Below are positions 13,536-32,244 of a DNA stretch of 47,467 nucleotides, piece after piece (positions within the stretch are counted from its first letter, which is position 1; every line of letters begins with the position of its first letter). The notes below the pieces were generated by a model. That model was given only the letters and a program-made list of their open reading frames with translations, was not told the DNA's origin and made no database searches. The stretch is taken from assembly GCA_018242545.1 (NCBI GenBank), contig JAFEBT010000006.1, positions 1-47,467 of the forward strand, in the 5' to 3' direction. This stretch comes from Pseudomonadota bacterium. Its GTDB lineage: Bacteria; Pseudomonadota; Alphaproteobacteria; 16-39-46. The translations under genes and the position numbers were made by a program.

Positions 13536-15344
13536 TTATTTTCCTTCCGTAAAAAGTTTATGGATTCTAGAATAGTCTGGGGCCTTATAATAGATGTCAA
13601 AATAGCTTTTAAATTTTTTTGATTGATCTTGATAATAATGCACATTTTCTATGAGTTTTTCGACCTTTTGAGAAACATCCGAAATATCCTTTCCTTTTAT
13701 AGATATATCTGGGATTCTATCAAGATCAATTTGTAAATCTGAGTTCATAAAAACAGCAGGAATTCCTCGAGCTGCTGCATTGAAGCAAATGGAGTTTGAA
13801 TTGTAAAAAACCAAGCAAGCTTTTTCTAAAAGTTCATCGGCGCTTAAAGGAGACCATTCAAGATCGATTCCTGGATTGGAAAAAAAATTCTGAATTTTCT
13901 CTTTATTTTCAGGAGAGATTAAAGGATGAAAATTAATAACAAGCGTTACATTTTTTTGAAGAGAAGGCTTTAATTTTTTAATAATCTTTATGGATGTTGA
14001 GATAAGTTCTAAAGAGTCATAAAATTGTATAGAACAAGCACATAAAATGACCTTTTTTTTGTAATGTGAATTGACCGGGAATTGTGAATTTTTTAATACC
14101 CGTTGAAATCGAAAATTTCCAAAGAGAGAACAGTCTTTTGTCCCCCTTTTTTCTATCCAATTTTTGAAAAAAGTATCACTTAATAAGAGAGAAGGACCCA
14201 TTTTTTCATGAATATAAGTATCAGAAAAGTAAGCAGTCAAATATTCTTTTGCAAATGGAAAGTGCTGGTAAGCATAAATTTTATGAGTGGGAAGTACTTT
14301 TTTAAAGGCTAAACTTAAGACCTTTTCCCAAGGTTGATTTTCAAAAGGGTAAATAAGTTTTACAGAAGGGTTTTTTAAGAATGTAAAAAGAGTGGTGGCG
14401 GCTGTATAGACTTCTAAAGCATGCAAAAGACGATACTTTAAGGTATCTTTTAAGCAAAACCATTTCCATAAAGAAGAAAAATCTATTCCTTCCATTTTGA
14501 AAGGATGATTATAATATTTTAAAAAATAAAAAGATTTAAAAAAGAGTTTAAAAAGATCTGAAATTTTAAGAAAATCTTGTAAGAGATAAAAATTATTTTT
14601 TTGTTTAATTGCTTCTTTTGCAATTTTTTTGAATGAATCAATAAAATTAAGAGGTTTTCCAACGATTGAAACTTTAAATCTCATATCAGCTAACTTTGAG
14701 AGTAAATCACCAAAATATCGGTCATTTAAAAAAAGATCATTATTTGTAAAAGAGCTTTCTCCTACCCAATTGATGCAAAGAACATCCGATTTTTCAAGAG
14801 CGCGCGTTTGTATTTTAGAGCGACAATAGTATCTCAAGAAATGAAGATACAATATGTTGTATAAACTTTGACAGAAATAGCAAACTTTTTGGAAAAGATG
14901 GCCAGTGAGTCTTTTTAGCAATTTCAAATAACTGATATGAGCTATTATCTTAAAACCATTTTTTCTAAGAAGGGATGCGTAAATATAAACTTGCTCGTCA
15001 TCATCACAGATAAATATAACATCTTCATTATTAAGCAGGTCCATTTTAAGGAGAGCGAAGGTGTTAAGAATATAAAGGGAGAAATTTTCAAGACAAAGGT
15101 TATTCTCTGCCAAATCACTTGCTAACCAGAGAGGATCTAAAATATCTAAGACGTGCTTGTCTAAGTTAATAATTTCTTCTTGAAAATTGTCTAAAAGAAT
15201 TTTTCGTTCTTTTGAGAGAAAATTAACTTGAATTCCTTTTCTTTCAAGATTTAAAAGGTTTTCTGTATTTACTCCGATATAGAAAAAATTTGAAATTCCT
15301 TGAGGGCACGACAAAACTTCCTTTATGTGGACAAATTTAATCAT
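13536..15344 (-). CDS. Large surface-carbohydrate biosynthesis protein, GT-B-like C-terminus
   Basis: I do not recognise a defined enzyme in this 602-residue protein. The C-terminal half looks like a GT-B or glycerophosphotransferase-type fold. It contains KIYAYQHFPFAKEYL (about 358-372), then SLFGNFRF, and VTLVINFHPLISPENK before a nucleotide-site-like segment CLVFYNSNSICFNAAARGI. The N-terminal half has aromatic-rich helices but no convincing signal peptide. The protein at 22058-23896 has the same architecture and similar size, so the two are probably paralogues. This layout recalls a family annotated as surface carbohydrate biosynthesis proteins (TIGR04326-like, from memory). It lies directly ahead of the aminotransferase gene with no gap. 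Confidence 0.6.
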   Translation of the reverse strand: MIKFVHIKEVLSCPQGISNFFYIGVNTENLLNLERKGIQVNFLSKERKILLDNFQEEIINLDKHVLDILDPLWLASDLAENNLCLENFSLYILNTFALLKMDLLNNEDVIFICDDDEQVYIYASLLRKNGFKIIAHISYLKLLKRLTGHLFQKVCYFCQSLYNILYLHFLRYYCRSKIQTRALEKSDVLCINWVGESSFTNNDLFLNDRYFGDLLSKLADMRFKVSIVGKPLNFIDSFKKIAKEAIKQKNNFYLLQDFLKISDLFKLFFKSFYFLKYYNHPFKMEGIDFSSLWKWFCLKDTLKYRLLHALEVYTAATTLFTFLKNPSVKLIYPFENQPWEKVLSLAFKKVLPTHKIYAYQHFPFAKEYLTAYFSDTYIHEKMGPSLLLSDTFFKNWIEKRGTKDCSLFGNFRFQRVLKNSQFPVNSHYKKKVILCACSIQFYDSLELISTSIKIIKKLKPSLQKNVTLVINFHPLISPENKEKIQNFFSNPGIDLEWSPLSADELLEKACLVFYNSNSICFNAAARGIPAVFMNSDLQIDLDRIPDISIKGKDISDVSQKVEKLIENVHYYQDQSKKFKSYFDIYYKAPDYSRIHKLFTEGK

Positions 15345-16305: not shown

Positions 16306-17520
16306 TTAAGGCGGATGATTTTTTATAAATTTAGAAATAATATCGGAAAAATTTTGAGCTACAATATTCATTCCTTTTTCAGTGAAATGAACATCATCCA
16401 AAAAGTTTTCTTCTGAGCAGTCTACTTGTATTGCATTGTCTACATATGTTATTTTATTAGATGAACATAGATCACGAATGATAGCGTTTTGTTGTTCAAT
16501 AATAGTATTAAAAATTTGATATGCTTCTGAATTTTTTCTTTGATTATTTAAATAATGACAATATGTGGAGAAAATGAGAGGTATGTTTTTTCCTTGGCAG
16601 ACATGAATAAGGGTTGAAATATTTCTTGAAAAGGTTTCTAGGCCTTTTTCAAATGGTTGATTTAAATTAATATGATTTTTCTTATTAATCATCTTAATTA
16701 AATCTAATTTCAAATTACTATGACTAAAAAGATCCGAAACTACATTATCTAAAAAATAAGATTTTACTAATGAAATTAAAGAAGCAAAAAATACAAGATG
16801 TGAATAATTCGTTTTTATACTTCTTCTAAAATGACTAAAATCTGTCTCAAAACTCTCTGTAAGATAACCCCTAATATCTGAATATCCACCATAAAAAAGT
16901 ATTAAATCAGGGTCCAAATATTGCAAATCAAATAAAAACTTTATAATAATTTCTTGTGTGGTATAAGCAAAGAACGATGCATTGATAACTTCAATGCGTG
17001 TATTTTTAATCATAGCCTGTAGTTTTTTCTCAAGAAGTAAAGGGTAGTTCACTTTGTTTGAAGGGCTTGCAAAATTCAAGGAAACTGAATCTCCTAATAT
17101 AAGAATCCTATATGTATGCTTTTCTTTTTTTTGAGTAATGAATTTCTTTTCTTCAGAAGCATAAAACAAGCCAAGATTATTGGTAGGAACTCCTCCAAGC
17201 ATAAAAGCTTTGTCATCGAGTAAAGAGGCTTTATCTTTTTGAGGAGTCCAGTTTTTATAAATGCTCCAAGGTAAATACGGATGATGTACAAAAGGAATGT
17301 CTTTCTTGGTAATGAAAAAACGTTTTTCTCTTTTTCTCTTATGAAAAAGAAAATATTGGAATCTGCAATATAATTCTGTGATTAGAAATGCAAATAAAAA
17401 GGATAAAAGATTGTTTAAATAACATTTAAAAATAAGAAACGATAAAAATAAAAATACAATTCCACTTAAAGCACTTGGTTTTAGAAAAAAAAGTGAAAAT
17501 TTATAAAAAAATTTATTCAT
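16306..17520 (-). CDS. Membrane-anchored SGNH/GDSL hydrolase
   Basis: Two hydrophobic stretches lie in residues 1-50 (SALSGIVFLFLSFLIFKCYL and LLSFLFAFLITELYC), followed by basic RKRE, so the N-terminus is a membrane anchor. The catalytic domain begins with ILILGDSVSLNFAS (the GDS block with the nucleophile Ser). It continues with FYGGYSDIRGY in place of a block III GxND, and ends with DDVHFTEKGMNIVA, which carries the Asp-x-x-His of block V. SGNH enzymes in glycan loci add or remove acetyl esters. The hydrolase domain side of the membrane is not settled by sequence. It overlaps the preceding lactonase-like gene by eight bases. Confidence 0.82.
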   Translation of the reverse strand: MNKFFYKFSLFFLKPSALSGIVFLFLSFLIFKCYLNNLLSFLFAFLITELYCRFQYFLFHKRKREKRFFITKKDIPFVHHPYLPWSIYKNWTPQKDKASLLDDKAFMLGGVPTNNLGLFYASEEKKFITQKKEKHTYRILILGDSVSLNFASPSNKVNYPLLLEKKLQAMIKNTRIEVINASFFAYTTQEIIIKFLFDLQYLDPDLILFYGGYSDIRGYLTESFETDFSHFRRSIKTNYSHLVFFASLISLVKSYFLDNVVSDLFSHSNLKLDLIKMINKKNHINLNQPFEKGLETFSRNISTLIHVCQGKNIPLIFSTYCHYLNNQRKNSEAYQIFNTIIEQQNAIIRDLCSSNKITYVDNAIQVDCSEENFLDDVHFTEKGMNIVAQNFSDIISKFIKNHPP

Positions 17521-18124
17521 CGATAGACATAAATATTGAATTGTTATAAATGCGATTTAAACAGGGATAGGAATTTTGTATGTTGTCAAGAAGACATTGT
17601 CTTTCTTTTCCTAGGGCTAAAATATAAATTTTATGAGAAAGAAGAAGAGCTTCTTCTGATAAACTGATACGATTTGGAATTTGCTTTTTAGTATGATAAA
17701 GCCTCATGCCTACTTGTGTCCATTCTGGTGCTTCTTCAGGAAAAAGAGACGCAAGATGTCCATCTATTCCCATGCTTAAAATTGTAATGGGAGAAAAAGC
17801 TTTGATTTTGGTGAGGAATTTTTCATTTAATGGAATATAATTTGGAGCAGGAAGATAGTTTAAAAAAGATTCTTTTAACTGTTTTTCATTGCTCATGTCA
17901 TGATGTAGAGGAACATCTCTTTCATCACTTAATCCAATTGTGACTTTATTCCAGGGGACATCTAACGTAAGAAGATAGGGAAAAAACAATTTGATGCTGT
18001 TTCCGCCAGGTAAAATTAGAAGTCCTTCACCTTTCAAATTAATTTGATGTAAGATATCCTTTTGAATTTCTTGGTTCAGAAATGTTCCAGCTTCTGAAAC
18101 TGATTGAAAATAATATGCTTGCAT
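17513..18124 (-). CDS. 6-phosphogluconolactonase/glucosamine-6-P isomerase-family protein
   Basis: The 203-residue product carries the family signature motifs LPGGNS (38-43), GLSDERDVP (64-72) with a following SNEKQL, and LSMGIDGHLASLFPE (116-130). These are the substrate-binding and catalytic regions of 6-phosphogluconolactonase, including the His of DGH. It is about 30 residues shorter than typical DevB. Its place in an overlapping operon of sugar-acid genes, rather than next to zwf or edd, suggests a lactone or phosphosugar of the glycan pathway as substrate. It abuts the HAD gene by one base and overlaps the SGNH gene by eight. The specific reaction is inferred, not seen. Confidence 0.78.
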   Translation of the reverse strand: MQAYYFQSVSEAGTFLNQEIQKDILHQINLKGEGLLILPGGNSIKLFFPYLLTLDVPWNKVTIGLSDERDVPLHHDMSNEKQLKESFLNYLPAPNYIPLNEKFLTKIKAFSPITILSMGIDGHLASLFPEEAPEWTQVGMRLYHTKKQIPNRISLSEEALLLSHKIYILALGKERQCLLDNIQNSYPCLNRIYNNSIFMSIDE

Positions 18125-18768
18125 TAAAGAAAATCTCTAAAATCCTGAATAATGGGGATAGATAACTCAAAAGGATTCGCTTCTCCTTTAGCTACTCTTC
18201 CTATAAAATTAACATCGATTTTAGAGGCGGCATTAAAATCACTGATGCTATCCCCAATAAAAAAAATATCTTTTCTCTTAAAGCCATACTGATGGATGAG
18301 CTTGGTTCCAATCTCACTTTTTTCATAAGGAGATCCATATATACCTTTAAAGTAATGAGAGAGATGTTTTTCTTGGCAAATTTTAATTAACTCCTCATGG
18401 GGGGTAGCTGAAAGCAAAAAAGTAGGAATATTATGTGCTTTCATTTTTTCTAAAAAGTCAATGACACCTTCAACAAGAGGTGCTTTTAAAATCTTTTCAA
18501 AAACAATTTCAGAAAATTGTTGAGAAAGCTGTTCTCTTTCTTCGGATGGACAAGACTTGTTCAAAAAAAGTTGATGTATCGCTTCAAATTTTTTGGAGCG
18601 ATTTACGCCCTGATGCTTTAAATGGTGTTCTTTTGCTTTTTCGGCAATTTTTTTTCCATAGGGAAGGTATACATCATAGAATGCATCTGTTTTAATATGT
18701 GTAGATTCCACAACTACGCCATCAAAATCAAGGAAGAGGACTTTTATATTACTTAACGTGTTTTTCAT
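18124..18768 (-). CDS. HAD-superfamily sugar phosphatase
   Basis: A 214-residue HAD hydrolase with a helical cap. Motif I is FLDFDGVVVES (Asp14, Asp16), motif II is FLLSAT near 137, a conserved Lys lies in YEKSEIG, and motif III/IV is FFIGDSISDFNAA with Asp pairs. The family removes a phosphate from sugar phosphates or interconverts phosphosugars; the C1 cap with QGVNRSKKFEAI fits the phosphoglycolate/beta-phosphoglucomutase subfamily. In the six-gene set it could dephosphorylate a sugar-acid 8- or 9-phosphate before CMP activation, as KdsC does in Kdo synthesis. It overlaps the epimerase gene by 20 bases. Confidence 0.85.
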   Translation of the reverse strand: MKNTLSNIKVLFLDFDGVVVESTHIKTDAFYDVYLPYGKKIAEKAKEHHLKHQGVNRSKKFEAIHQLFLNKSCPSEEREQLSQQFSEIVFEKILKAPLVEGVIDFLEKMKAHNIPTFLLSATPHEELIKICQEKHLSHYFKGIYGSPYEKSEIGTKLIHQYGFKRKDIFFIGDSISDFNAASKIDVNFIGRVAKGEANPFELSIPIIQDFRDFL

Positions 18769-19633
18769 AGATTTCTTCCATGCAGCTCAAAATTCCTTGA
18801 CCAAATTCCAGATATTCAGAGCTGACAAGCTTACGTGAAATTTTTGGTTTAAAGACATAAGGGGTTAACTTATAATGCCCATGCACACGATCAATTTCAG
18901 GCTGAATTGTTTGAATTTCTATATCTTCCCCCAGCATTTCAGTAATAATATGGAGAAGCTCCCCGCGGCTAATATGTTGATAGCCTGTTAATATGATGTG
19001 AACATTTTTATATTCTTCTTTGAGAATATCAACACTCATGCGGGCGGCATCATAGACATGAATAAAATCTCTCTTTTCATCGCTGCCATATCCAACTTCA
19101 ATTTTCTTTTCTAAGAGCGCTTGTTTAATAACACGGTGAATAAAGTTCTTTTCATCCGCTCGGGGACCATACAGTGACCCATACCTTAAAATTGTATAAT
19201 CAATACCAAAGTTTTTTTGATATTCTTCAATGATAATTTCACAAGCTTGTTTGCTTGCTCTATAAAAACCGCCTGAGTCAGAGTAAACGTATACGGTTGA
19301 TGCAAAAACAAGCCGTTCTACAGGATGTTGTCGACAAGCCTCAAGGATGTTAATCGTTCCTTGAATATTTAAATGGAGCGTTTCTTTAGGATTCTCAAAT
19401 CCAACCTCAATATCTGCTTGTCCCGCAAGGTGATAAACATAATCTTTGTCTTCAATGACCTTACGAACAAGATTTTCGTCAAGAATGCTTCCTTGAATAA
19501 AGGTTTGTTTTGAATTTATAAATTCAGAAGGTCGAACATCAAAAATGGTTGTTTCTATACCAGAATTTGTAAGAGCATCAGCTACATGACTACCAACAAA
19601 CCCGGATCCCCCAAATACAACAGCTTTTTTCAT
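18749..19633 (-). CDS. NAD-dependent epimerase/dehydratase (six-gene set)
   Basis: An extended SDR of 294 residues: FGGSGFVGSHVADAL (7-21) is the nucleotide site, HLAGQADIEVGFENP follows, ASTVYVYSDSGGFYRASK holds the catalytic Ser-Tyr124-Lys128, and LRYGSLYGPRADEKNF is the substrate-binding segment. It resembles sugar-nucleotide epimerases, but the PGDH-like partner (four-base overlap) and the HAD partner (20-base overlap) suggest a precursor of the 2-keto acid made by this set. It cannot be assigned to a single substrate from sequence. Confidence 0.85.
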   Translation of the reverse strand: MKKAVVFGGSGFVGSHVADALTNSGIETTIFDVRPSEFINSKQTFIQGSILDENLVRKVIEDKDYVYHLAGQADIEVGFENPKETLHLNIQGTINILEACRQHPVERLVFASTVYVYSDSGGFYRASKQACEIIIEEYQKNFGIDYTILRYGSLYGPRADEKNFIHRVIKQALLEKKIEVGYGSDEKRDFIHVYDAARMSVDILKEEYKNVHIILTGYQHISRGELLHIITEMLGEDIEIQTIQPEIDRVHGHYKLTPYVFKPKISRKLVSSEYLEFGQGILSCMEEIYEKHVK

Positions 19634-20592
19634 TTTAATCCAACAAAATTAAATCCATTTAATGGCCTTCGTAAAGGCCGTCCTTGTATAAAGTTTAGAA
19701 CATCTTCAGAAACTTGGTTTTCCATTAATTTTCTAACTTCATGCGTCATTGATCCGAGATGAGAAGTTAAAAGACAGTTTTCCAATTCTGTCAAATTTCC
19801 GTTATAAGGTTCAATCTCAAATACATCGAGGGCAGCTCCTGCCAAGTGTTTTGTTTGGAGAATTTGATAGAGTGCATTTTCATCAATAATACCACCTCGT
19901 GATGTATTGACCAAGTAACTTCCTTGTTTCATTGTTTTTAAGAGATTAAGATCTACAAGACTTTTCGTCGAAGCATTTAAGGGAAGATGAAGAGAAACAA
20001 CATCAGATTCTCTAAAGAGTCTCTCAAGAGAACATTTTGTTGCATTTGAAATATGTGTGACATAAGGGTCATAAAAGAAAATGTCTGACAAGGGAGAGAT
20101 TGCTTTGATCATTTGAATAACTTTAGACCCAATTTTTCCAGCGCCTACAATTCCAAACTTAAAAGAAGATAACATTCTTCCCATAGGGCGATACCAAATT
20201 TTTTCGTGAAGTTTGTGATCAGAAATGGAGATTCCTTTTATAAGATTAAGAATAAGAGCAAGTGTGAATTCAGGAACTGATTCCGATGGTGCATCAGGAG
20301 TATAGGTAATGGACACAGCATTTTTTTTAGCCTCTTCAAGATCAATGTTATCAACTCCCACCCCTACACGTGCGATAAGTTTCAAGTGAGGAGCCTGTTC
20401 GAGAACGGATTTTGTAATTTTTTCCGTTCCTGCAATTAGGATATGAGAATCCTTAATTTTTTCTATAAAATCTTCTTCTGAAAATCTCTTTTTTTCTTTA
20501 TTTTCAGTAAGTTGAGCATTTTTTTGTAAGGATTTAAGAGCATCCGGTGCTGCTTCCCCAAATCCTATATTTGAAATAAGAATATTAAGCAT
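19630..20592 (-). CDS. D-2-hydroxyacid dehydrogenase (phosphoglycerate dehydrogenase-like)
   Basis: A 320-residue NAD-dependent dehydrogenase of the D-isomer-specific family. The substrate-side ARVGVGVDNID lies at 74-84 and the NAD-binding GIVGAGKIGSK at 147-157. The catalytic residues are Arg232 in NTSRGG, Glu261 in FEIEPY and His278 in TSHLGSM. It lacks the C-terminal ACT regulatory domain of biosynthetic SerA, so a serine-synthesis role is unlikely. Its partners, an HpaI-type aldolase and a CMP-transferase (eight-base overlap), suggest it makes or removes a 2-keto acid for the glycan pathway; oxidation of glycerate to hydroxypyruvate is one possibility. That step is an inference. Confidence 0.88.
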   Translation of the reverse strand: MLNILISNIGFGEAAPDALKSLQKNAQLTENKEKKRFSEEDFIEKIKDSHILIAGTEKITKSVLEQAPHLKLIARVGVGVDNIDLEEAKKNAVSITYTPDAPSESVPEFTLALILNLIKGISISDHKLHEKIWYRPMGRMLSSFKFGIVGAGKIGSKVIQMIKAISPLSDIFFYDPYVTHISNATKCSLERLFRESDVVSLHLPLNASTKSLVDLNLLKTMKQGSYLVNTSRGGIIDENALYQILQTKHLAGAALDVFEIEPYNGNLTELENCLLTSHLGSMTHEVRKLMENQVSEDVLNFIQGRPLRRPLNGFNFVGLK

Positions 20593-21343
20593 AGCGTTTT
20601 ACAAATTCATCTTGATGCAGAATTTTTTCTGCACGTTCTAAATCATATGGGACATCAACAGCCACAGTTTCTTTCTCTGTATAGACAACTCTTAAAGGGA
20701 GGCTATGTTCAAGGACACGCAGCATATCAATGGATTCAATTTTTTCAAGAGGCGTTTGTGGTAATTCACTAAATTCCTTGAGGAATTTCCGAGAAAACCC
20801 AATAACGCCTGTTTGTTGGTAGCTGGTAACGTTTTTGTCTCTATACGTTGAAGGGATGGGAGACCTTGAAAAATAAAGAGCCCTTTGATCTGGGGCAGAG
20901 ACAACTTTAACAACGTTCGGATCTTGATGGTCAGATTCTCTATAGAGTTTCGAGAGAAGGTTAATAACGGGGGAATGAGTTTGTTCATAATCACGTATAA
21001 CCATGTCAATCATATTTGGTGTGACAAGAATTTCATCTCCTTGAACCATTATAATAAGATCTTCTTGTTCTACAGAAAATGAAAGCTTCTCGATGGCCTC
21101 ACTTACCCTGTCCGTACAACGTTCATGTTTAGGACTGGTTAAAATGACAGGAATATTGTGTTCATGACAGACGTTTTCAATTTCTTTATCACATGTTGCG
21201 ACAGCAACATAATTTAAATGCTCTGATAATAAACAACGTTTTGCAACATGGATTATAACAGGGATATTCAAGGCTTTTTTGAGGGGTTTTCCTGGAAAGC
21301 GTGAGGAGCCCATTCGAGCCGGAATGATACATATTTTGTTCAT
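20585..21343 (-). CDS. KdsB-like CMP-sugar-acid cytidylyltransferase
   Basis: The 252-residue product matches 3-deoxy-manno-octulosonate cytidylyltransferase. Signatures are IPARMGSSRFPGKPL (7-21), CTDRVSEAIEKL (76-87), IMVQGDEILVTPN (98-110) with the metal Asp103, and EKIESIDMLRVLEHS. It also has a C-terminal VDVPYDLERAEKIL. It transfers CMP from CTP to the anomeric hydroxyl of a 2-keto sugar acid. Two features argue that the substrate need not be ordinary Kdo: it is encoded in an operon with an aldolase instead of kdsA, and residues around the usual KdsB GDEPLI loop are EILV here. A separate housekeeping kdsB is expected elsewhere but not visible. Confidence 0.85.
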   Translation of the reverse strand: MNKICIIPARMGSSRFPGKPLKKALNIPVIIHVAKRCLLSEHLNYVAVATCDKEIENVCHEHNIPVILTSPKHERCTDRVSEAIEKLSFSVEQEDLIIMVQGDEILVTPNMIDMVIRDYEQTHSPVINLLSKLYRESDHQDPNVVKVVSAPDQRALYFSRSPIPSTYRDKNVTSYQQTGVIGFSRKFLKEFSELPQTPLEKIESIDMLRVLEHSLPLRVVYTEKETVAVDVPYDLERAEKILHQDEFVKRYA

Positions 21344-22074
21344 CGATTTATTCCTTGTAAAGCGTATCTTAAAGCGATCATATCTGTCCCATAAGCAATA
21401 AAATCATAGCCTTCTTGAATGCGTGTTTCTAACTTTGATAAGCAGGGCTCGACTTGATGAAACCCAAGCATTTTTTTCTGTCTGATTGCTTCTTCGCGAA
21501 TGGTTTTACATAGTTCTTTAAAAAAAGGATCATCAAATTTTCCGGGGCTTCCAAGACTTGCTGATAAATCATAAGGACCAATCATAATTCCATCTATAAA
21601 TTGAGAAGAAAGTATGTTTTGAATACTTTCAGCACCTAATTTTGTTTCAATTTGTGCGATGAGAATGGGTTTAAATTCGTTAAAGTATTCTTCTAAATGA
21701 GATCCCCACCTGTTAGCACGAACGAGCCCCAATCCTCTTTTTCCTTGGGGCGGAAAAAAACAATGTTGCGCAAATTCATCAAAAGAATTTTTTGACTCAA
21801 CAACAGGAAGTATTAATCCGAGAGCGCCGGCATCTAAAAGACGACGCGCGAGATAAGGATCTGCAGATGAGAGCCTTACAAAAGGCTTACAATTCAGGCT
21901 CTCTGCTGCAATAAAAATTGTTTCAGCATCTTGGATGCTCATTGAGGTATGTTCTAAATCGACAACGATCCAATCAAATCCCAGACTTGCCATTGAAAAG
22001 GTTATCTGAGGTGAGGGGAGTTGTTGCCAAGCAGCAAATATGGGTTGATGTGAAAGTTTATTCTTTAATAGCAT
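21340..22074 (-). CDS. HpcH/HpaI-family aldolase
   Basis: A class II pyruvate-type aldolase of 244 residues. The conserved Glu41-His42 pair in VVDLEHTSMS, Arg67 in PFVRLSS, the metal-binding Glu143 in QIET and Asp169 in GPYDLSASLG are all present. HpaI-family enzymes reversibly join pyruvate, and in several cases hydroxypyruvate, to an aldehyde. Most are catabolic, but this one is fused by overlap to a CMP-transferase gene (four bases) inside a glycan operon, which suggests the condensing direction making a 2-keto-3-deoxy or 3-hydroxy sugar acid. It overlaps the large glycan gene upstream by 17 bases. Confidence 0.88.
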   Translation of the reverse strand: MLLKNKLSHQPIFAAWQQLPSPQITFSMASLGFDWIVVDLEHTSMSIQDAETIFIAAESLNCKPFVRLSSADPYLARRLLDAGALGLILPVVESKNSFDEFAQHCFFPPQGKRGLGLVRANRWGSHLEEYFNEFKPILIAQIETKLGAESIQNILSSQFIDGIMIGPYDLSASLGSPGKFDDPFFKELCKTIREEAIRQKKMLGFHQVEPCLSKLETRIQEGYDFIAYGTDMIALRYALQGINR

Positions 22075-23896
22075 TTAGAATCCTCTTATAAGACAGTGTA
22101 TCATTAAATGGATTAGCATAGTTTTTTAAAAAGGAGGATGATTCATAAGGATTCGTTGGGCTTTGTTTCGTTTTGTCCCAATTAAGAAGATCTTTATGAA
22201 GTGTTTTTACCAAAGTATCTGAGTTTTCAAAAAGAACATTATCTTCTTTCAAGGATTTTTTGAAATTTTTTATATAAAAATCTGAATTTATTAAACAATA
22301 AGATTTTAATCCACACGACATCGCTTGTATGAGAGAAGTAGAAGGTCTGTCTGTAATAAAATGTGTCGCTTTTATAAGAAAATTTTCTAAGGGCAAGGAA
22401 CTTACATAATGGACACGTTTATCTTCTTTAAAAAGAAATCTAAGAGCAGAATGATAGCCATCATGAGAGGGATGGGCTTTTAAAATTAAATCAAAATCTG
22501 ATTTAATATTTAGCAATGACTGAATAAAATCTTTTTGAAGGCTAAAGTCTATAAGTCCTGGTGGGTGATCAAGCGTTACTCTTACGCCATCATTAATAGC
22601 TTGAAGCAAGTATACAATGATAGGCTTAGAGGATTTTTTAGAAAAAATTTTCCTTTTTCTGTTCAATATTTGTTCTTTTAGAAAATCAACCTGTGCAGAC
22701 CCTACAGAATGAATATTTAGATTATTCCAGTCTCCTTCTTTTTTTATTTGTTTGGTAACGCCTTCTCCCCAAACAAAATAATCTGTAATAAAAGGATACT
22801 CAAGGTATGCGTTAATTTTATCTTTTATGATACCGTGTGATCCATGATGCAAACAATAAACCTTTTTTTTATAAGACTTAAAAATCTTTGCTATGGCCAT
22901 GGATCCAAATGTATTGAATCCTGTGGAAAGAATAGATTCCCATGTTTGAGAGGGATTTTTTTTGTAAAAATTGATTGTGTTTAATGTTTCTTTTAAAAAA
23001 GCATTGAGCGTCGTTATGATTATTTTCTTATAATATTCTTTAAAGCTCACTCCTAAGATTTCAAAATCATTTGGGGATAAAATACTGTTAACCATGCTTT
23101 GAGCAGTTCGAGGAGTTTCTATGTCATTTTGTGGTATCTTAGGTAAAAAGCAAAAATTTTTAAGCTTTCCATAAAAATAATGGACTTGGATATTGATGCA
23201 TAATAGATTTTTTCTCGAAATAATCCTTTGTAAAAATAATTTATATTTAAGAATGAGATTTAGAGCGGTCGGACTTTTTTTAAATTGACGGAGAATTTCT
23301 TTTGATTCGAACTCTGATTTATATCCTGCAAAGCTTCCAATTGGATTATAATAGCCAGCCTTAATTAATTCTTTATCTTTAAAAACTGACGTTATGGCGA
23401 AATCTAAGGAATGATTTGTGTGATAAGGAGCGTTAGGATAAGAAAAAGGCGGTTCTTCAAAAGAGACATAATAAACGTTTAAAAAATCTCCCAATGCTTT
23501 CTTTAGAGAAGCGAGCTCATAGATTCTTAACTCAATACTATCACACCACAAACGCAAAAAATAAAATGAAAACTGAGAAAATACCATATCATATTTTTTA
23601 AATACTGGATAATAAGAATATATTTCTTTATCTAAACGTTTTAATATTTCTCCAAGGGATTCGTAGGATTTCTCGAAAATGTAATGATTAAAAGTAGTAT
23701 AATTATAAAAGTCAGTAATTTTTGCAACTTGGAGAGTCTCTTTTTCAAGAAAGAGAAGCGCCGTTTCTGTAATTGCTATCCATAAAATTTTATCATTTTT
23801 AATCGCTTTATTTAAAAAGTATTCTTTAAAAATGGGAATTTGTTCAGGAAATTGAACAAGAGCAACTCCTTCAAAGTTACTTAAAAGTTTAGTCAT
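22058..23896 (-). CDS. Large surface-carbohydrate biosynthesis protein, paralogue of 13536-15344
   Basis: This 612-residue protein shares its architecture with the one at 13536-15344. An N-terminal half of unknown fold with many aromatic residues is followed by a GT-B-like C-terminal half. There, KVYCLHHGSHGIIKDK (about 345-360) corresponds to the YAYQHF segment of the paralogue. FDLILKAHPSHDGYHS corresponds to its NFHPLISPENK segment, and ATHFITDRPSTSLIQAMSC to its nucleotide-binding turn. The His-containing HPS loop resembles CDP-glycerol glycerophosphotransferase and related transferases. No enzyme name is justified. Start MTKLLSNFEGVALVQF lies on the eight-base overlap with the PIG-L gene upstream. 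Confidence 0.6.
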   Translation of the reverse strand: MTKLLSNFEGVALVQFPEQIPIFKEYFLNKAIKNDKILWIAITETALLFLEKETLQVAKITDFYNYTTFNHYIFEKSYESLGEILKRLDKEIYSYYPVFKKYDMVFSQFSFYFLRLWCDSIELRIYELASLKKALGDFLNVYYVSFEEPPFSYPNAPYHTNHSLDFAITSVFKDKELIKAGYYNPIGSFAGYKSEFESKEILRQFKKSPTALNLILKYKLFLQRIISRKNLLCINIQVHYFYGKLKNFCFLPKIPQNDIETPRTAQSMVNSILSPNDFEILGVSFKEYYKKIIITTLNAFLKETLNTINFYKKNPSQTWESILSTGFNTFGSMAIAKIFKSYKKKVYCLHHGSHGIIKDKINAYLEYPFITDYFVWGEGVTKQIKKEGDWNNLNIHSVGSAQVDFLKEQILNRKRKIFSKKSSKPIIVYLLQAINDGVRVTLDHPPGLIDFSLQKDFIQSLLNIKSDFDLILKAHPSHDGYHSALRFLFKEDKRVHYVSSLPLENFLIKATHFITDRPSTSLIQAMSCGLKSYCLINSDFYIKNFKKSLKEDNVLFENSDTLVKTLHKDLLNWDKTKQSPTNPYESSSFLKNYANPFNDTLSYKRILNAIKE

Positions 23897-25837: not shown

Positions 25838-26511
25838 TTATTTTCCTAATATTAAAAACCATTCTGCATGTATAATATTTTCAGGAGTATAAAATTTTTC
25901 CTCAATATGTTTCATTTCATAGATTTTGAAACCAGCGGCAAGAATTAATTTGTATAATTCTTCTTCGTTATAAAACTTTAAGTTATCTACCTTAAGAAAA
26001 GAGTCTGATTTAAATTGCGTTAAGCCGGAATCCAATAAATCACCTTCAAGATATGAAGTGTGCTTAGTTGAAAAAGGATTAAAACAAAAATATCCCTCAG
26101 GTTTTAATACGCGATGCACTTCCTTAAGGGATGCAAGGCATTCGTTAGTATTCACACACGTTAAAGAACTTCTATCAATGACAAGATCAAAAAAATTTGA
26201 TTGAAAGTCTAAAGGATAAAAAAGACTTTGTTGAAGATAAACAGGGAAAAGGTTTTCCCTTAAAAACCATTCTTTTGCGTGATTGACAGCAAATGAAGAT
26301 CCTTCTATTCCATAACAATTAAATCCCTCTTTTGCGCAAAACCAAAGATTACATCCTGACCCAAAGCCTAATTCTAAAATTTTAGTTTCATTTTTAGGCT
26401 TATGCCGTGGGTAATAATTAAAGATGAAGCTAACAACTTTATCCCAAGGGTATTTATTTTATTAAGTGAATTTTTAGCTTTATATCTAGCATCCCATAAA
26501 ATATTAAACAT
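25838..26511 (-). pseudogene. SAM methyltransferase broken by a 5-bp tandem duplication
   Basis: An ATG at 26511, overlapping the formyltransferase stop, opens MFNILWDARYKAKNSLNK. After that the frame is lost: it runs out of phase at two tandem copies of ATAAA (minus strand; 26453-26462). With one copy removed, the protein continues YPWDKVVSFIFNYYPRHKP and reaches ILELGFGSGCNLWFCAKEG (motif I). It then reads through LVIDRSSLTC and a complete C-terminal half to the stop at 25838. As sequenced, only a GTG at 26155 could start the 105-residue tail, which lacks motif I. Restoring the frame gives a normal-looking methyltransferase of about 220 residues, so the defect is recent or reversible. Confidence 0.8.
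26453..26462 (-). repeat. Two tandem copies of a 5-bp unit at the frameshift
   Basis: The plus strand reads TTTATTTTAT (two copies of TTTAT), equal to ATAAAATAAA on the minus strand. Losing one copy restores SLNKYPW across the junction, so this is the likely site of the frame change in the methyltransferase gene. Confidence 0.75.
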
Positions 26512-27367
26512 CGAAACTCTCTTCTGTTATAGTATAATCAGTGATTTTTAAAGAATGATCAGTACACTGAAGATAAATTTCATTATTAAGGCTATGTAAC
26601 CCACAAGTTTCAAATTTCTTTTCAGATATATTAGCTTTCCAAATGGTCGTTTTCATTCTATCTTTAATTAAAAACGCTCCAGGATATGGTCTTGAAAGAG
26701 CTCTAATAAAATTTAAGATTTCGTAAGCATTTTTATTTAAGTTAATGACGCCATCGGCTGGTTTTCTCGCTGGATAAATGGATCCCAATGCCGAATTTTG
26801 TGGTTTTCTTTGAATATTGTTATTTAGAAACATAGTGATGACGTCGTTGGTAATCGTCCTATATAGAGGATAAATTTTTTCGAGTACATCTCCAATATAT
26901 TCATGTTTGTGGATTGGCAATTCAACTTGTTTAATAATATCTCCTGTATCAACGTCAGCATCTATAAAATGTGCTGTTAATCCAACTTTATTTTCTCCAT
27001 GAATCATTGCCCAATTAAGAGAGGCACGCCCTTTAAATTTTGGAAGAAGACTTGGGTGTAAATTTATAGCTCCTAATCTAGGGAGTAGGAAAATTTCAGA
27101 AGGGAGTAAATATTTATAATCTGTAACCCAAATAAGGTCAGGCTTGATTTTATTTATAAAATCTAAAAGAAGAGGCATTTTGGGGCTTGCTCTTATAACC
27201 GGAACATTCAGTTCATTAGCATAGTCATGAACAGATAAATATTTATTACCATCTTCAGGATCTTCAGGATGTGCAACAACTCCAGATAAACATCCATAGG
27301 GATATAAAGCTTTTAGTACTTGAACACCTACAGTATGATTACCAAGAAAAACAATCTTTAATTTCAT
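26504..27367 (-). CDS. Sugar N-formyltransferase, probable PseJ-like
   Basis: The 287 residues have a formyl_trans_N domain followed by a smaller C-terminal domain. The catalytic triad Asn102, His104 and Asp140 (in AINLHPSLLPKFKGRASLN and DADVDTGDII) has the same 36-residue His-to-Asp spacing as methionyl-tRNA formyltransferase. The protein is too short for Fmt and sits in the pseudaminic-acid operon, so the formyl acceptor is probably an amino sugar. Its place next to PseI, in a pathway without a PseH acetyltransferase, suggests it formylates the 4-amino group of the PseC product to give a 7-N-formyl pseudaminic acid, as PseJ is reported to do. It abuts pseI by one base and overlaps the broken methyltransferase by eight. 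Confidence 0.85.
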   Translation of the reverse strand: MKLKIVFLGNHTVGVQVLKALYPYGCLSGVVAHPEDPEDGNKYLSVHDYANELNVPVIRASPKMPLLLDFINKIKPDLIWVTDYKYLLPSEIFLLPRLGAINLHPSLLPKFKGRASLNWAMIHGENKVGLTAHFIDADVDTGDIIKQVELPIHKHEYIGDVLEKIYPLYRTITNDVITMFLNNNIQRKPQNSALGSIYPARKPADGVINLNKNAYEILNFIRALSRPYPGAFLIKDRMKTTIWKANISEKKFETCGLHSLNNEIYLQCTDHSLKITDYTITEESFDV

Positions 27368-28416
27368 TATGTAAGATCCTCAATCTGAATAGGATCTCCT
27401 TGTTTTAAAGGTTTATTTATTGTTCTTCCTAATAAAAGCACTTCATTTTTAGGTAGAAATCCACAGCCCGGACGAGCGAATATAATATCGCTTTTTGAAA
27501 GTACATCTCCAATCTTAAGATCTCTTTTAGCACAACAAGAAAGTCTAAAATCACGTCGAGAATCTTTTTCACTTTCCGTAGGCCCTAGATATGGGATGCC
27601 AGTTGCTTTTTCAACATATCTTACACCTTCTACAAGTATAGAAAATTCTTTTGGGTCACAGGAAAATCTATGGTCAGGACCAGGTAGATTTTTATCAAGC
27701 GTAAAATGTTTTTCAATCCATGCCGTTTTATAAGTAATTGATCCTATGGCAGCCCAGGGCCCTTCTGAATGATCACTAAACCCACTGATAACACCAAACG
27801 TATCTCTTAATGTCTTAATTTTCATTAAATGGATATCTTCTGCAGGGGTAGGATAAGAAGATGTACAATGAAGTAAGATAAGGTTTTCGTTTCCTGTGCC
27901 ACGAAATGTCGTGACGGCATCATCAATTTCACTAATAGTTGCCATTCCTGTGGATAAAACGGTTGGAATTTGAGATTTTCCCATATAGTCAATAAGCTCG
28001 AGATTTGTTAAAAAATCAGAGCCATTTTTTAAGACATTAACACCTATTTTCTTAAGTAAATCCACGCCTTCAAAATTTGTAGGTGTCGAATGGAAGTCAA
28101 TCTTGTTTTGATCACAAAAATCTTTCAACTCCATGACATGCTTATGATTTAATTCGTAGCGTTTAAACATATCATACTGAAATTCTTTAACTAATTTTCC
28201 TTGGGAAAGATATTCGTAGGTTATGTTTTTTAGAGGAACAAAATCTTCAGTTTTGTAGTTTTGAAACTTGACAGCATCGGCTCCAGCTGTCTTTGCTGCA
28301 AGAATTGTTTTTTTTGCAAGCTCCATATCTCCATTATGATTAATTCCAATTTCGGCAACAATATAGGCAGGATAATCCTTTCCTATCTTTTTAGAACCTA
28401 AATCAATGTATGTCAT
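27367..28416 (-). CDS. pseI: Pseudaminic acid synthase PseI (NeuB family)
   Basis: PseI condenses phosphoenolpyruvate with 6-deoxy-AltdiNAc to make pseudaminic acid. The 349-residue product has the NeuB barrel: YIVAEIGINHNGDMELAK, GADAVKFQNYK, FHSTPTNFEGVDLL, VLSTGMATISEI and GFSDHSEG. The C-terminal SAF-like antifreeze domain begins near residue 290 (RDLKIGDVLSKSDIIFARP). The run of neighbours (PseB, C, F, G) points to PseI rather than sialic or legionaminic acid synthase, because PseG and PseB are specific to that branch. PseI and NeuB differ in substrate only, so a legionaminic-type product is possible. It overlaps pseG by 14 bases. Confidence 0.9.
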   Translation of the reverse strand: MTYIDLGSKKIGKDYPAYIVAEIGINHNGDMELAKKTILAAKTAGADAVKFQNYKTEDFVPLKNITYEYLSQGKLVKEFQYDMFKRYELNHKHVMELKDFCDQNKIDFHSTPTNFEGVDLLKKIGVNVLKNGSDFLTNLELIDYMGKSQIPTVLSTGMATISEIDDAVTTFRGTGNENLILLHCTSSYPTPAEDIHLMKIKTLRDTFGVISGFSDHSEGPWAAIGSITYKTAWIEKHFTLDKNLPGPDHRFSCDPKEFSILVEGVRYVEKATGIPYLGPTESEKDSRRDFRLSCCAKRDLKIGDVLSKSDIIFARPGCGFLPKNEVLLLGRTINKPLKQGDPIQIEDLT

Positions 28417-29395
28417 GTATAACCTCTAAGACTGAATTAATCCCCATCCCATCACAAGTTTCAGATGCGTTTTTTTGGAATGTTCTCAAGAATTCTTTAT
28501 CCATCATTAAATTATTTATGAAATCTGATGCAGTTTTTGTATTTTTAAGATCTTCTACCAAAAAGGCAGCTCCACTTTTATGAAGATTTTTAGCAATTAA
28601 TTCTTGATTAGAGCTTACAGTAAACATAAGGGTAGGAAGTCCAAGTGTGCATCTTTCCCACATGCTACTTCCAGAAGCACCTATTGCTAAGTCTGCCTGA
28701 TAAGTTAATTTTGGCATGTCTGCATTAATATGGATAAAACATTCATTAGGGATATTTTTAATGTATTCTTCTACAGAGCTTAGATTCTGTCCCTCAAATC
28801 CTAGAACAATATCCACATTTCCTCTGAATTGAGACCGCTTAATTATGTCAAGGGCTTTTAACGTATAGTTTTGAGGATCACTTCCTCCCATTGAAATAAG
28901 GATACGATTTATTTGGGTTGTTTGTTTTCTTTTTTTGAGGGCTTTTGGCCTTAATTCTCTAAATTCTGTTCGAAGTAATGCATACTTAATACCTGTTAAT
29001 ATTTTGCATCTTTGAGGGACGAGGTTTTTGTAAGTTTCTATTAATTGACCATAGGTTTGGTCTAATAAAATATCACACTCATGTTGTCTATTTGCAAGAT
29101 CATCAATAACCATTATTTTTTTGGCAAAGGGACGAAAATGAGCTTCGTAAGATTTTTCTATATTATAATTATCAATAACAAGAAGGTCACAGTGAAAAGG
29201 ATGATAATAAAATGAGCGTGGATCTACGCGCTCAAAAGATTTCAATTGAGAGATAAATTCATAAGTCGTTGGGAGCGTTATAATTTTACACATCCAATGA
29301 TGTTCTTTTAAAGCCTCTGCAAGGACACAAGAACGTATGGCATGTCCCGCTCCTATTTTTGAAGAGGCCTCAAATAAGAAAAGAGCGGTTTTCAT
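28403..29395 (-). CDS. pseG: UDP-2,4-diacetamido-trideoxy-altrose hydrolase PseG
   Basis: PseG is an inverting GT-B-fold hydrolase that removes UDP from the di-N-acylated altrose before PseI. The 330 residues carry KIGAGHAIRSCVLAEAL, in which His18 aligns with the catalytic His of Campylobacter PseG, and a nucleotide-binding C-terminal half with ILISMGGSDPQNYT, GASGSSMWERCTLGLPTLMF and NLHKSGAAFLV. It is encoded by overlap with pseF (four bases) and pseI (14 bases). The start ATG at 29395 gives MKTALFLFEASSKIG. If the acyl group at C4 is formyl, this enzyme must accept the formylated substrate. Confidence 0.9.
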   Translation of the reverse strand: MKTALFLFEASSKIGAGHAIRSCVLAEALKEHHWMCKIITLPTTYEFISQLKSFERVDPRSFYYHPFHCDLLVIDNYNIEKSYEAHFRPFAKKIMVIDDLANRQHECDILLDQTYGQLIETYKNLVPQRCKILTGIKYALLRTEFRELRPKALKKRKQTTQINRILISMGGSDPQNYTLKALDIIKRSQFRGNVDIVLGFEGQNLSSVEEYIKNIPNECFIHINADMPKLTYQADLAIGASGSSMWERCTLGLPTLMFTVSSNQELIAKNLHKSGAAFLVEDLKNTKTASDFINNLMMDKEFLRTFQKNASETCDGMGINSVLEVIHDIH

Positions 29396-30069
29396 ATTTT
29401 TGATGAGTTTTTAGTGAGAGTGTCAACGTCTTTTAAAAGAAGTTTTAAAGAGGTAGAAGAAGGATTTATTTTTTTAATAAAAGCATAGTCTTCCGGGGTG
29501 TCTAAGGTTATTCGAATGTGTCTGTGATTCCCTTCTGGGTTTTCAAAATTATGGACCTTAAGAGTGCGCCGCATCCATTCTGTAACATGTTCAAAGTCTT
29601 CAGGATGGGTGGCATATTGTAGGGAATTTTTGAGCTCTTCTATCCCAAACACCTCACAATCATAACCGTGTGGCCAGGTAGGGGGGAGATTATTGCAGGT
29701 ATATTCGGCTTTATTTTGAATATGCATTTGTAAAACATCTGAGCATACCTCAGGATTAATAAGGGGGCAGTCGCTTGTAACGCGCATAATAATATCTGCT
29801 TTTAAGTGCTTGGCTGCTTCATAATATCTTTCTAAAACATTTAATTCTGAGCCTCTAAAGATAACGGCATTATATTTTTCAGCTTCAGCAATAAGAACAT
29901 CATGATCTTTTCCAAGAGGAATAGCACAACAAACAACATCTATATTCTTAATTTGCTGACATCTTGATAAAACTTGGCCAAGAACTGTTTTATCCCATAA
30001 AGGAAGCATGACTTTCCCAGGTAATCTTGAGGACGTCATTCTCGCTTGAATTATTACTGCGGTGCGCAT
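29392..30069 (-). CDS. pseF: Pseudaminic acid cytidylyltransferase PseF (SpsF-like)
   Basis: This activates pseudaminic acid to CMP-Pse, the donor for glycosylation. The 225 residues from the ATG at 30069 begin MRTAVIIQARMTSSRLPGKV, the SpsF/PseF nucleotidyltransferase signature. It continues with SRCQQIKNID, IIMRVTSDCPLINPEVC, and HIRITLDTPEDYAFIKK. A longer frame to 30144 exists, but its head (MFNDTFICGTF) is unrelated and lies within the pseC 3' end. The chosen start leaves a 16-bp overlap with pseC. It overlaps pseG by four bases. Confidence 0.88.
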   Translation of the reverse strand: MRTAVIIQARMTSSRLPGKVMLPLWDKTVLGQVLSRCQQIKNIDVVCCAIPLGKDHDVLIAEAEKYNAVIFRGSELNVLERYYEAAKHLKADIIMRVTSDCPLINPEVCSDVLQMHIQNKAEYTCNNLPPTWPHGYDCEVFGIEELKNSLQYATHPEDFEHVTEWMRRTLKVHNFENPEGNHRHIRITLDTPEDYAFIKKINPSSTSLKLLLKDVDTLTKNSSKI

Positions 30070-31229
30070 ATGGATAAAATCTCTCGTATAATATTTTGTT
30101 GATCCCTTAGAGAAAGTCCCACAAATAAAGGTATCGTTAAACAACTCTCATAATATTGTTCTGCGCCTTTTAAAGTTTGAGGACCATATAGCTTTTTGTA
30201 ATAAGGTTGCTTATAAAGAGGAATATAATGAACTTGTGTTCCAATGCCTTTTTCTTTTAATCCTCTCATAATATCAGATCTTGATTTTCCGATTTTATTA
30301 TAATCGATGAAGATTATGTATAAGTGCCAAGCTGTTTCTGAAAATTTTAATTTTTTCAAAGGCTTTAAATAATTTATATTTATGAATGCGTCATCATAAA
30401 TTTTAACGATTTTAGAACGCTCAGATATAAATTCTGGGAGTCTTTTTAATTGGCTAAGCCCAAGAGCGCAATTGATATCGCTGATACGATAATTATATCC
30501 AAGCTCTTGCATTTCGTAATACCATGGATGTGATGATTCAATTTCTACCCATTTATGAGGGTCTCGTATCATTCCATGGCTCCGGTATAATTTTAACTTT
30601 TCTGCAATTTTATGATCATTTGTGGTAATTGCTCCTCCTTCTCCCATAGCAATGGTTTTAACGGGATGAAAAGAAAAAGTCGTAATGTCCGAAAATCTAT
30701 TTGAGCCAATAGGATGTCTGGTCCCCTCGTTGGTTAAATAAGAGGTTCCAATTGCATGAGCTGCATCTTCTATAATAAATAAATTATATTTCTGTGCTAT
30801 TTTATAGATTTCTTCTAAATTTTCACAGTGCCCTGTGAGATGGACATTCACAACAGCTTTTATGTTTTTGGAATGATTTTTTAAAATTGCAGCTTCTAAA
30901 GTTTCTGAAGTCATTAAGCCTGTTGTGGGATCAACATCTACAAAAGCAACGTGAGCTCCAACATATCGAGCAGCATTGGCGGAAGCTAGAAAGGTGATAG
31001 CCGGGACTAAAACGATATCTCCAACACCTATCCCTAAAGAGAGCATTGCAAGGTGTAATGCGGTTGTGCCATTCGAGCATGAAATAGCATGTTTTGCATT
31101 AACTGTTTTTTCCAGCATTTGTTCAAATTTTTCGACAACAGGACCACAGGTAAGCCAATCGCTTTGTAATACTTCAGTAAGGGCCTTTATATCATCAGGA
31201 GAGATGGAATGTCTTCCATAAGAAATCAT
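30054..31229 (-). CDS. pseC: UDP-4-amino-sugar aminotransferase PseC
   Basis: PseC transfers an amino group from glutamate to C4 of the PseB keto product. It is a DegT/DnrJ/EryC1-family PLP enzyme of 391 residues, a normal length. Visible are the N-terminal RHSISPDDIKAL, CSNGTTALHLAML, VDPTTG, the PLP-binding EDAAHA (154-159), and the Schiff-base Lys191 in FHPVKTIAMGEGG. Its product, a 4-amino-4,6-dideoxy sugar, is normally acetylated by PseH, but no GNAT gene is present here. It is separated from pseB by one base. Confidence 0.92.
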   Translation of the reverse strand: MISYGRHSISPDDIKALTEVLQSDWLTCGPVVEKFEQMLEKTVNAKHAISCSNGTTALHLAMLSLGIGVGDIVLVPAITFLASANAARYVGAHVAFVDVDPTTGLMTSETLEAAILKNHSKNIKAVVNVHLTGHCENLEEIYKIAQKYNLFIIEDAAHAIGTSYLTNEGTRHPIGSNRFSDITTFSFHPVKTIAMGEGGAITTNDHKIAEKLKLYRSHGMIRDPHKWVEIESSHPWYYEMQELGYNYRISDINCALGLSQLKRLPEFISERSKIVKIYDDAFININYLKPLKKLKFSETAWHLYIIFIDYNKIGKSRSDIMRGLKEKGIGTQVHYIPLYKQPYYKKLYGPQTLKGAEQYYESCLTIPLFVGLSLRDQQNIIREILSICAPQ

Positions 31230-31230
31230 G

Positions 31231-32244
31231 TTAATCTTCCAGCATTAATCTTAGTTGTTGTGAGTTAAGCCATTCTGTATTGGTATCACTGGAATATACC
31301 ATCCTTTTTTCAAAAGGCTTATTCTCAATTCGATTTTCCCATAAGTTTGGATTGATGAAGGAAGAAAGAATAGCATATCGATCTTCCATTTCACGAGTTT
31401 GTAATGACTCGTCAGAAGTGAGCATACATTCATGTAATTTTTCTCCAGGACGGATACCTATCTCGTGTGTTGGGATTCCTGGTTGAATGGCATTTGCTAA
31501 GTCAATAATTTTCATGCTGGGAATTTTGGGGATAAAAATTTCTCCTCCTTGCATTAAAAACAAATTAGATAAAACAAAATCAACACCTTGTTGTAACGTA
31601 ATCCAAAACCGTGTCATGTCATTATCGGTTATTGGTAGGGAAGTAGCTCCTTCTTTTAATAATTTTTTGAAGAATGGAACGACGCTACCTCTTGATCCTA
31701 CGACATTTCCATATCTTACAACAGAGAAGAGTGTTGGGTCTGATCCTCGTATATTATTGGCAGCTACAAAAATTTTCTCTGCAGCGAGTTTGCTTGCTCC
31801 ATATAAGTTAATAGGACTAACAGCTTTATCGGTTGAAAGAGCTAATACTTTTTGTACGGAGTTTCTTAAGGCAGCTCTTACAATATTTTCTGCTCCAATA
31901 ACGTTTGTATGAATACATTCATATGGATTGTATTCTGCAATAGGAACATGTTTTAAAGCTGCTGCATGAATGACAATGTCAACCCCTCGGAAAGCCATTT
32001 CTAGGCGGTTATAATCACGTACATCTCCTATAAAATAGCGCAAAAAAGGATATTTAGATTCTGGGAATTTTTGAGCCATTTCATATTGTTTGAGTTCATC
32101 TCGTGAAAAAATGATAAGTTTTTTTGGAGAATAGAGATTAATGATTGTTTGAACAAGTTGATTCCCAAAGGACCCTGTTCCTCCTGTTATAAGAATCGTT
32201 TTATTATTTAAATCAGGAGTTTTTATAAGAAAATTCTTAAGCAT
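31231..32244 (-). CDS. pseB: UDP-GlcNAc 4,6-dehydratase/5-epimerase PseB
   Basis: PseB starts the pathway by converting UDP-GlcNAc to a 4-keto-6-deoxy sugar with inversion at C5. The 337 residues have the NAD-binding TILITGGTGSFG (16-27), the PseB-type HAAALKHVP, and the catalytic segment STDKAVSPINLYGASK with Thr138, Asp139, Lys140, Tyr148 and Lys152. That TDK...YGASK pattern marks the short FlaA1/PseB group rather than the membrane-bound PglF type. A 139-bp AT-rich gap lies between it and the ABC exporter upstream, so it may have its own start of transcription. Confidence 0.92.
   Translation of the reverse strand: MLKNFLIKTPDLNNKTILITGGTGSFGNQLVQTIINLYSPKKLIIFSRDELKQYEMAQKFPESKYPFLRYFIGDVRDYNRLEMAFRGVDIVIHAAALKHVPIAEYNPYECIHTNVIGAENIVRAALRNSVQKVLALSTDKAVSPINLYGASKLAAEKIFVAANNIRGSDPTLFSVVRYGNVVGSRGSVVPFFKKLLKEGATSLPITDNDMTRFWITLQQGVDFVLSNLFLMQGGEIFIPKIPSMKIIDLANAIQPGIPTHEIGIRPGEKLHECMLTSDESLQTREMEDRYAILSSFINPNLWENRIENKPFEKRMVYSSDTNTEWLNSQQLRLMLED

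Follow-up and report, generated by a model that had tools for sequence, protein, structure and literature searches.

A minus-strand run of six overlapping genes lies at positions 17513-22074 of the 47,467-nucleotide stretch analysed here (the window), contig JAFEBT010000006.1 of the alphaproteobacterial assembly GCA_018242545.1. In order of transcription they encode an HpcH/HpaI-type aldolase, a KdsB-like cytidine monophosphate (CMP) transferase, a D-2-hydroxyacid dehydrogenase (DHDH), an extended short-chain dehydrogenase/reductase (SDR), a haloacid dehalogenase (HAD)-superfamily phosphatase and a 6-phosphogluconolactonase-like protein (Pgl) (Table 1). An earlier, sequence-only reading of this DNA had noted that the genes overlap by 1-20 bases in one direction, and had proposed that they make a CMP-activated 2-keto sugar acid with the aldolase in place of a phosphoenolpyruvate (PEP)-dependent synthase. 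The coordinates in the open reading frame list bear out the arrangement, the successive overlaps being 1, 20, 4, 8 and 4 bases. The overlapping run extends on both sides, to a GDSL gene by 8 bases and to a 612-aa glycosyltransferase-like gene by 17, and merges into flanking surface-polysaccharide genes; a promoter scan found 67 promoters with 64 expected. We treat the six as one unit because at a locus in another genome (L184) the same six form a full run (KdsB-aldolase-DHDH-SDR-HAD-Pgl) between unrelated genes, namely an RNA-methyltransferase-like gene after it and divergent O-antigen ligase and methyltransferase genes before it.

Table 1. The six-gene cassette and two neighbouring genes in the window
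Feature	Coordinates	Strand	Length	Remarks
HpcH/HpaI-type class II aldolase, proposed C-C bond former replacing a PEP-dependent synthase	21340..22074	-	244 aa	PF03328, E=1e-26
KdsB-like CMP transferase, cassette clade, distinct from housekeeping KdsB	20585..21343	-	252 aa	PF02348 (CTP_transf_3)
D-2-hydroxyacid dehydrogenase (DHDH), PGDH-like, SerA phosphate-site arginines absent	19630..20592	-	320 aa	PF02826, E=3e-47
Extended SDR (NAD-dependent epimerase/dehydratase/dehydrogenase)	18749..19633	-	294 aa	PF01370, E=8e-48; motif YVYSxxGGFYRASK
HAD-superfamily phosphatase, proposed KdsC-like step	18124..18768	-	214 aa	PF13419/PF00702
6-phosphogluconolactonase-like protein (Pgl), proposed lactone hydrolysis	17513..18124	-	203 aa	PF01182 (Glucosamine_iso/6PGL)
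Putative glycosyltransferase, candidate CMP-sugar user	22058..23896	-	612 aa	17-base overlap with aldolase; weak TIGR04396 surface-carbohydrate match; KAHP and STS motifs
Putative glycosyltransferase, candidate CMP-sugar user	13536..15344	-	602 aa	homologues in L096, L048, L053, L060, L046, L069, L037

Each of the six proteins has a Pfam assignment (best E-values 4e-16 to 8e-48). None reaches any NCBIfam equivalog cut-off displayed; the KdsB-like protein passes two ‘subfamily’ models only. Their catalytic residues, previously described as intact, are indeed kept at the positions checked and are near-invariant among homologues. They include D39, H42, R67, D81, E143 and D169 of the aldolase; the KdsB CTP/Mg residues (E. 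coli R10, R15, K19, Q98, D100 and D235), all kept in the window protein and in the 33 cassette KdsBs; R232, E261 and H278 of the DHDH; Y124/K128/S112 of the SDR, invariant in 62 homologues; the HAD motifs D14, D16, S120, K150, D173 and D177, conserved in 51 homologues; and the Pgl motif GxDGHxASLF, invariant in 11.

The gene set recurs. A scan of 85k genomes seeded with the SDR yielded 80 loci, which were then searched with profiles for partner genes. The aldolase is present in 42 of these loci and is accompanied in every case (42/42) by a CMP transferase of the KdsB or NeuA type, versus 5/38 of the aldolase-free loci (p=2e-17, or 2e-15 once eight near-copies are removed; the loci are biased toward the SDR and are not independent, so that these and later p-values are guides only). 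The transferase is always on the same strand as the aldolase: 24 loci have only the KdsB type, 15 only the NeuA type and three both. The linkage spans 11 phyla. The HAD phosphatase occurs in 38/42 aldolase loci and the DHDH in 37/42, while aldolase, CMP transferase, DHDH, SDR and HAD are found together in 35 of the 80 loci. Complete six-gene sets are known from eight loci. The aldolase-KdsB-dehydrogenase trio picked out by the sequence-only reading thus recurs widely in other genomes. A search of the 80 loci turned up no kdsA-like gene. The cassette is ancient and recurring.

From this gene content we consider it probable that the six genes together encode a pathway dedicated to making a CMP-activated 2-keto sugar acid for use in a surface glycan, with an aldolase instead of KdsA or NeuB. 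To our knowledge the well-known bacterial CMP-activated 2-keto sugar acids are all made by PEP-dependent synthases. The suggestion that an aldolase may replace such a synthase is supported, as a matter of comparative genomics, by the invariable pairing with a CMP transferase and by loci free of kdsA. In the proposed route the aldolase, standing in for KdsA or NeuB, would couple a sugar aldehyde, which is probably a sugar phosphate, with a keto acid of the pyruvate type; the HAD phosphatase would take the phosphate off in a KdsC-like step; and the KdsB-like enzyme (NeuA-type in other genomes) would use CTP to activate the ulosonic acid so freed. The DHDH, SDR and lactonase would supply or modify the two building blocks, and the CMP-sugar is probably used by a GT-B glycosyltransferase encoded nearby. 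The reaction order, the substrates, the product and the roles given to the SDR, dehydrogenase and lactonase are inferred.

Several points weigh against this proposal. Co-occurrence cannot prove that the product of the aldolase is the substrate of the CMP transferase. Aldolases of this family are reversible and often catabolic in role, and the deepest branch between cassette and catabolic aldolases is weak (Shimodaira-Hasegawa-like approximate likelihood ratio test, SH-aLRT, 70). In 7/42 aldolase loci a NeuB-type gene is no more than 10 kb away, and the window is itself such a case: the statement that no PEP-dependent synthase is present stands for the six genes, but a PseI-like gene of the NeuB type (27367-28416) is found 5.3 kb from them. 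The latter has, however, its own pathway to serve, since it is located inside a PseB/C/F/G/I-like set (26504-32244). That set also includes a formyltransferase-domain gene (26504-27367), so the pseudaminic-type sugar of the window may be N-formylated.

A further point on the same side is that the SDR, DHDH and HAD genes are present also in aldolase-free loci and may therefore serve another step. In those loci another cytidylyltransferase is found in 21/38, frequently accompanied by a radical-SAM/SPASM protein (12/38); aldolase and alternative cytidylyltransferase coincide in only 1/80 loci (p=6e-8). This mutual exclusion speaks for the proposed pathway, and the SDR, DHDH and HAD may accordingly make a precursor common to two routes. 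At L034, L038, L045, L046, L111 and others the aldolase is replaced by a radical-SAM/SPASM protein, a different cytidylyltransferase and a short-chain dehydrogenase, with the SDR kept and often the DHDH and HAD as well.

The KdsB-like protein can be set against the housekeeping genes for 3-deoxy-D-manno-octulosonic acid (Kdo). The source genome (1.9 Mb) has four CTP_transf_3 matches. Its housekeeping KdsB, on contig 8, shares 80% identity with that of two congeners and clusters with alphaproteobacterial KdsBs, and its single kdsA is alone on contig 21, away from the cassette. In a phylogeny a branch (SH-aLRT 96) separates the 33 cassette KdsBs, the window protein among them, from 38 others, including housekeeping ones; all seven of the cassette-bearing genomes tested have a further KdsB elsewhere. 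The sequence-only reading had staked its case on this protein not being the only KdsB of the genome and a member of the housekeeping cluster, and on kdsA not lying next to these genes in relatives; it survives both checks, the second over the 80 loci searched. The protein also falls below both KdsB equivalog cut-offs (TIGR00466, 151.3 versus 155.2; NF003948, 180.9 versus 281).

The C-terminal domain of KdsB has been described as its Kdo-binding part (PMC3149649). We compared conservation in sequences, 26 housekeeping against 33 cassette KdsBs, rather than reading the Kdo contacts of each residue from structure. Five residues of the sugar-binding domain (E. coli H181, G183, Y185, E210 and Q211) are invariant in the former and changed in nearly all of the latter; the window protein has Q, G, I, D and M at these positions and other cassette members mostly Q, C, I, D and M. 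Because of these changes the cassette KdsB probably acts on a different sugar acid, and the product of the cassette is probably not Kdo. They also bear on the possibility that the substrate is simply Kdo made by the housekeeping KdsA, which the enzyme would activate for a surface polymer, with the aldolase set making a separate sugar. A second CMP-Kdo synthetase (KpsU-type, as at L144) is often found in capsule loci, the source genome does carry kdsA on contig 21, and the NCBIfam ‘KdsB’ subfamily model is exceeded (270 versus 255). Yet besides the five altered positions and the failed equivalog cut-offs, every aldolase locus among the 80 has a CMP transferase and KdsB gives way to NeuA types in some, which leaves activation of Kdo unlikely.

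The aldolase scores 93.7 bits with PF03328 (cut-off 25). HpaI, GarL and RhmA are catabolic aldolases, and both 6-phosphogluconolactonases and 2-hydroxyacid dehydrogenases are common in metabolism, which would fit sugar-acid catabolism by the aldolase, dehydrogenase and lactonase, placed in a polysaccharide locus by chance. We hold this to be very improbable: scores with the HpaI, GarL and RhmA equivalogs (128, 110.8 and 105.3 bits) are far under the cut-offs (369, 407 and 441), the genes overlap, the CMP transferase linkage is unbroken over 11 phyla, and no zwf that the lactonase could serve was found in the source genome.

Cassette aldolases cluster on their tree (SH-aLRT 94 for a branch of 36/46 rows), and the combination of Y168 and H206 is their signature, present in 45/46 cassette members and few others. 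The transferase type switches between KdsB and NeuA at least six times on this tree. Such repeated replacement beside the same aldolase fits a common substrate, and the pairing of two CMP-transferase types with one aldolase group strengthens the idea of an aldolase in place of a synthase. In a printed alignment H206 of the window protein is aligned to F210 of SwHKA (Sphingomonas wittichii hydroxyketoacid aldolase, 6r62), which touches C3 of hydroxypyruvate (PMC10099721; PMC7610986). A histidine at this position hints at a nucleophile with a C3 substituent and a product that is not 3-deoxy. It is conceivable, though doubtful, that the nucleophile is hydroxypyruvate made by the DHDH from D-glycerate and that the CMP-ulosonic acid keeps its C3 hydroxyl. 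PEP-dependent synthases give 3-deoxy acids, and such a product would belong to a nucleotide-sugar class that they do not make.

Close relatives searched have only catabolic-type aldolases (~34% or less), except one (G043) in which all six genes are present. Two congeners are without the aldolase, so the cassette is accessory in the source genome. In G160 (C17:24079-24810) a cassette-type aldolase is broken by an in-frame TAG, with a KdsB-type gene nearby.

An aldolase profile search of 397 Pseudomonadota genomes left a clear gap in score, with the window aldolase and three others above 330 bits and the remainder at or below 248. KdsB is within ~3 kb in all three of these other hits (3/3); no CMP transferase was found within 1.5 kb at the next 26 aldolase loci. 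The genus of L184 has the aldolase in 37/37 genomes, with KdsB and DHDH adjoining in 20/20 loci read, and the cassette looks to be core to it. This genus is very probably Nitrosomonas, because the L184 aldolase shares 74-87% identity with those on contigs named as Nitrosomonas. The same enzymes, with a NeuA-type transferase, are on an Acuticoccus plasmid. KdsB matches on Streptomyces plasmids either sit in a set that contains kdsA or stand in no set at all, and hence differ from the cassette; on one (NZ_CP108746.1, L027:10554-12729) kdsA, a SIS-domain gene and kdsB are adjacent on a Gram-positive plasmid. A Leisingera caerulea plasmid (L148:3386-6388) has an ‘aldolase catalytic domain’ protein next to a HAD gene and a divergent KdsB-like gene, possibly another route to a CMP-sugar acid. 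In two different alphaproteobacteria, exonuclease-like (RNase_T / Rv2179c-like) genes adjoin the cassette (L028:16800-17447 and L029:6523-7188).

A 5.8-kb viral contig (IMGVR_UViG_3300010883_024701, L025:344-2587) carries Pgl-aldolase-KdsB, with aldolase and KdsB 51% and 60% identical to those of the window; its neighbours are a Cas4-type exonuclease, a GIY-YIG protein, a nucleotide kinase-like protein and ribonucleotide reductase. This was the only copy recovered when viral sequences were scanned, whether with alignments or single proteins, and the other phage KdsBs read score as non-cassette. A 462-kb uncultured phage (LR756500.1, L151:6969-8723) has a KdsA-like gene adjoining a non-cassette KdsB, the classical equivalent of the viral aldolase-KdsB pair.

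The DHDH, whose closest solved structure is 1wwk, is the only PF02826 gene found in the source genome. Its A54 and T56 stand at the positions of R60 and R62 of E. coli SerA, which we take to be the phosphate-site arginines, and the residues listed for position 54 across 58 cassette DHDHs include no arginine. With these arginines missing, a SerA role supplying phosphohydroxypyruvate was set aside. Pgl does not reach its equivalog cut-off (92.4 versus 124.45 bits), although its L184 homologue passes with 153 bits; no other pgl match was found in the source genome, and a place in the pentose phosphate pathway was set aside as zwf is absent. In other loci a PF04199 hydrolase is found, never with Pgl: among the 42 aldolase loci 16 have the hydrolase, 6 have Pgl and none has both, and the two are together in 0/80 overall (p=0.1, not significant). 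A common lactone-opening role is a guess. A PF04199 ‘cyclase’ hydrolase of a family found inside many related cassettes is also present in the window, 17 kb off (39396-40130), as a weak match to the cassette type (44 bits).

These enzymes raise one more alternative, in which a preformed aldonic acid is the source of the CMP-sugar acid: the SDR makes a lactone by oxidation of a sugar, the lactonase opens it, the DHDH oxidises C2 to the keto group and the aldolase has a side role. The order of SDR, lactonase (Pgl, elsewhere the PF04199 hydrolase) and DHDH does fit a course from sugar through lactone and aldonate to 2-ketoaldonate, as do the lack of SerA phosphate-site arginines and the mutual absence of the two hydrolases. 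Against it, the phage contig keeps aldolase, KdsB and Pgl with no SDR or DHDH seen, and L065 and L092 have aldolase and KdsB with DHDH not found. We judge this scheme improbable and retain the aldolase as the probable C-C bond former.

So construed, the cassette resembles the Kdo pathway (KdsD-KdsA-KdsC-KdsB) in uniting a C-C bond former, a phosphatase and a KdsB-family CMP transferase to give a CMP-2-keto acid for surface glycans. It differs in having an HpaI-type aldolase, not the PEP-dependent KdsA, a phosphatase unlike KdsC (19 bits with the KdsC model) and a KdsB with altered sugar-domain residues, and in adding the SDR, DHDH and lactonase. It approaches the nonulosonic acid pathways (NeuB/PseI/LegI with NeuA/PseF) where a NeuA-type transferase alone accompanies the aldolase (15/42 loci), but is without NeuB, the PseI of the window belonging to the nearby Pse-like set. 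SwHKA is of the same Pfam family as the aldolase (E=9e-27), with Phe where the window protein has His; we know of no place for it in CMP-sugar synthesis. Sialic acid aldolase (NanA) is a Schiff-base aldolase of a different family. It and CMP-sialic acid synthetase have been used together in one-pot synthesis (PMC7729866). There too pyruvate and an aldehyde are turned into a CMP-sugar acid by an aldolase and a CMP transferase, but as a laboratory cascade, whereas in the cassette the genes themselves stand together. No published description of the cassette was found in the open literature, preprints and subscription papers being outside the search. Judged by its genes, the cassette is a putative new variant of CMP-ulosonic acid biosynthesis.

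The user of the CMP-sugar may be encoded alongside. The 602-aa protein has a predicted fold that is generic GT-B-like (predicted local distance difference test, pLDDT, 74), and its family recurs beside cassettes, which makes it a candidate. The 612-aa protein may be another; its single-sequence structure model was unusable (pLDDT 33).

If the proposed pathway is correct, automatic ‘kdsB’ annotations would be corrected and synthetic chemists would gain an aldolase with a natural CMP-transferase partner. The core trio on a phage contig suggests that phages, too, move or exploit such surface chemistry. There would be an unrecognised acidic sugar on many bacterial surfaces, among them those of a genus, very probably Nitrosomonas, in which all sampled genomes carry the aldolase.

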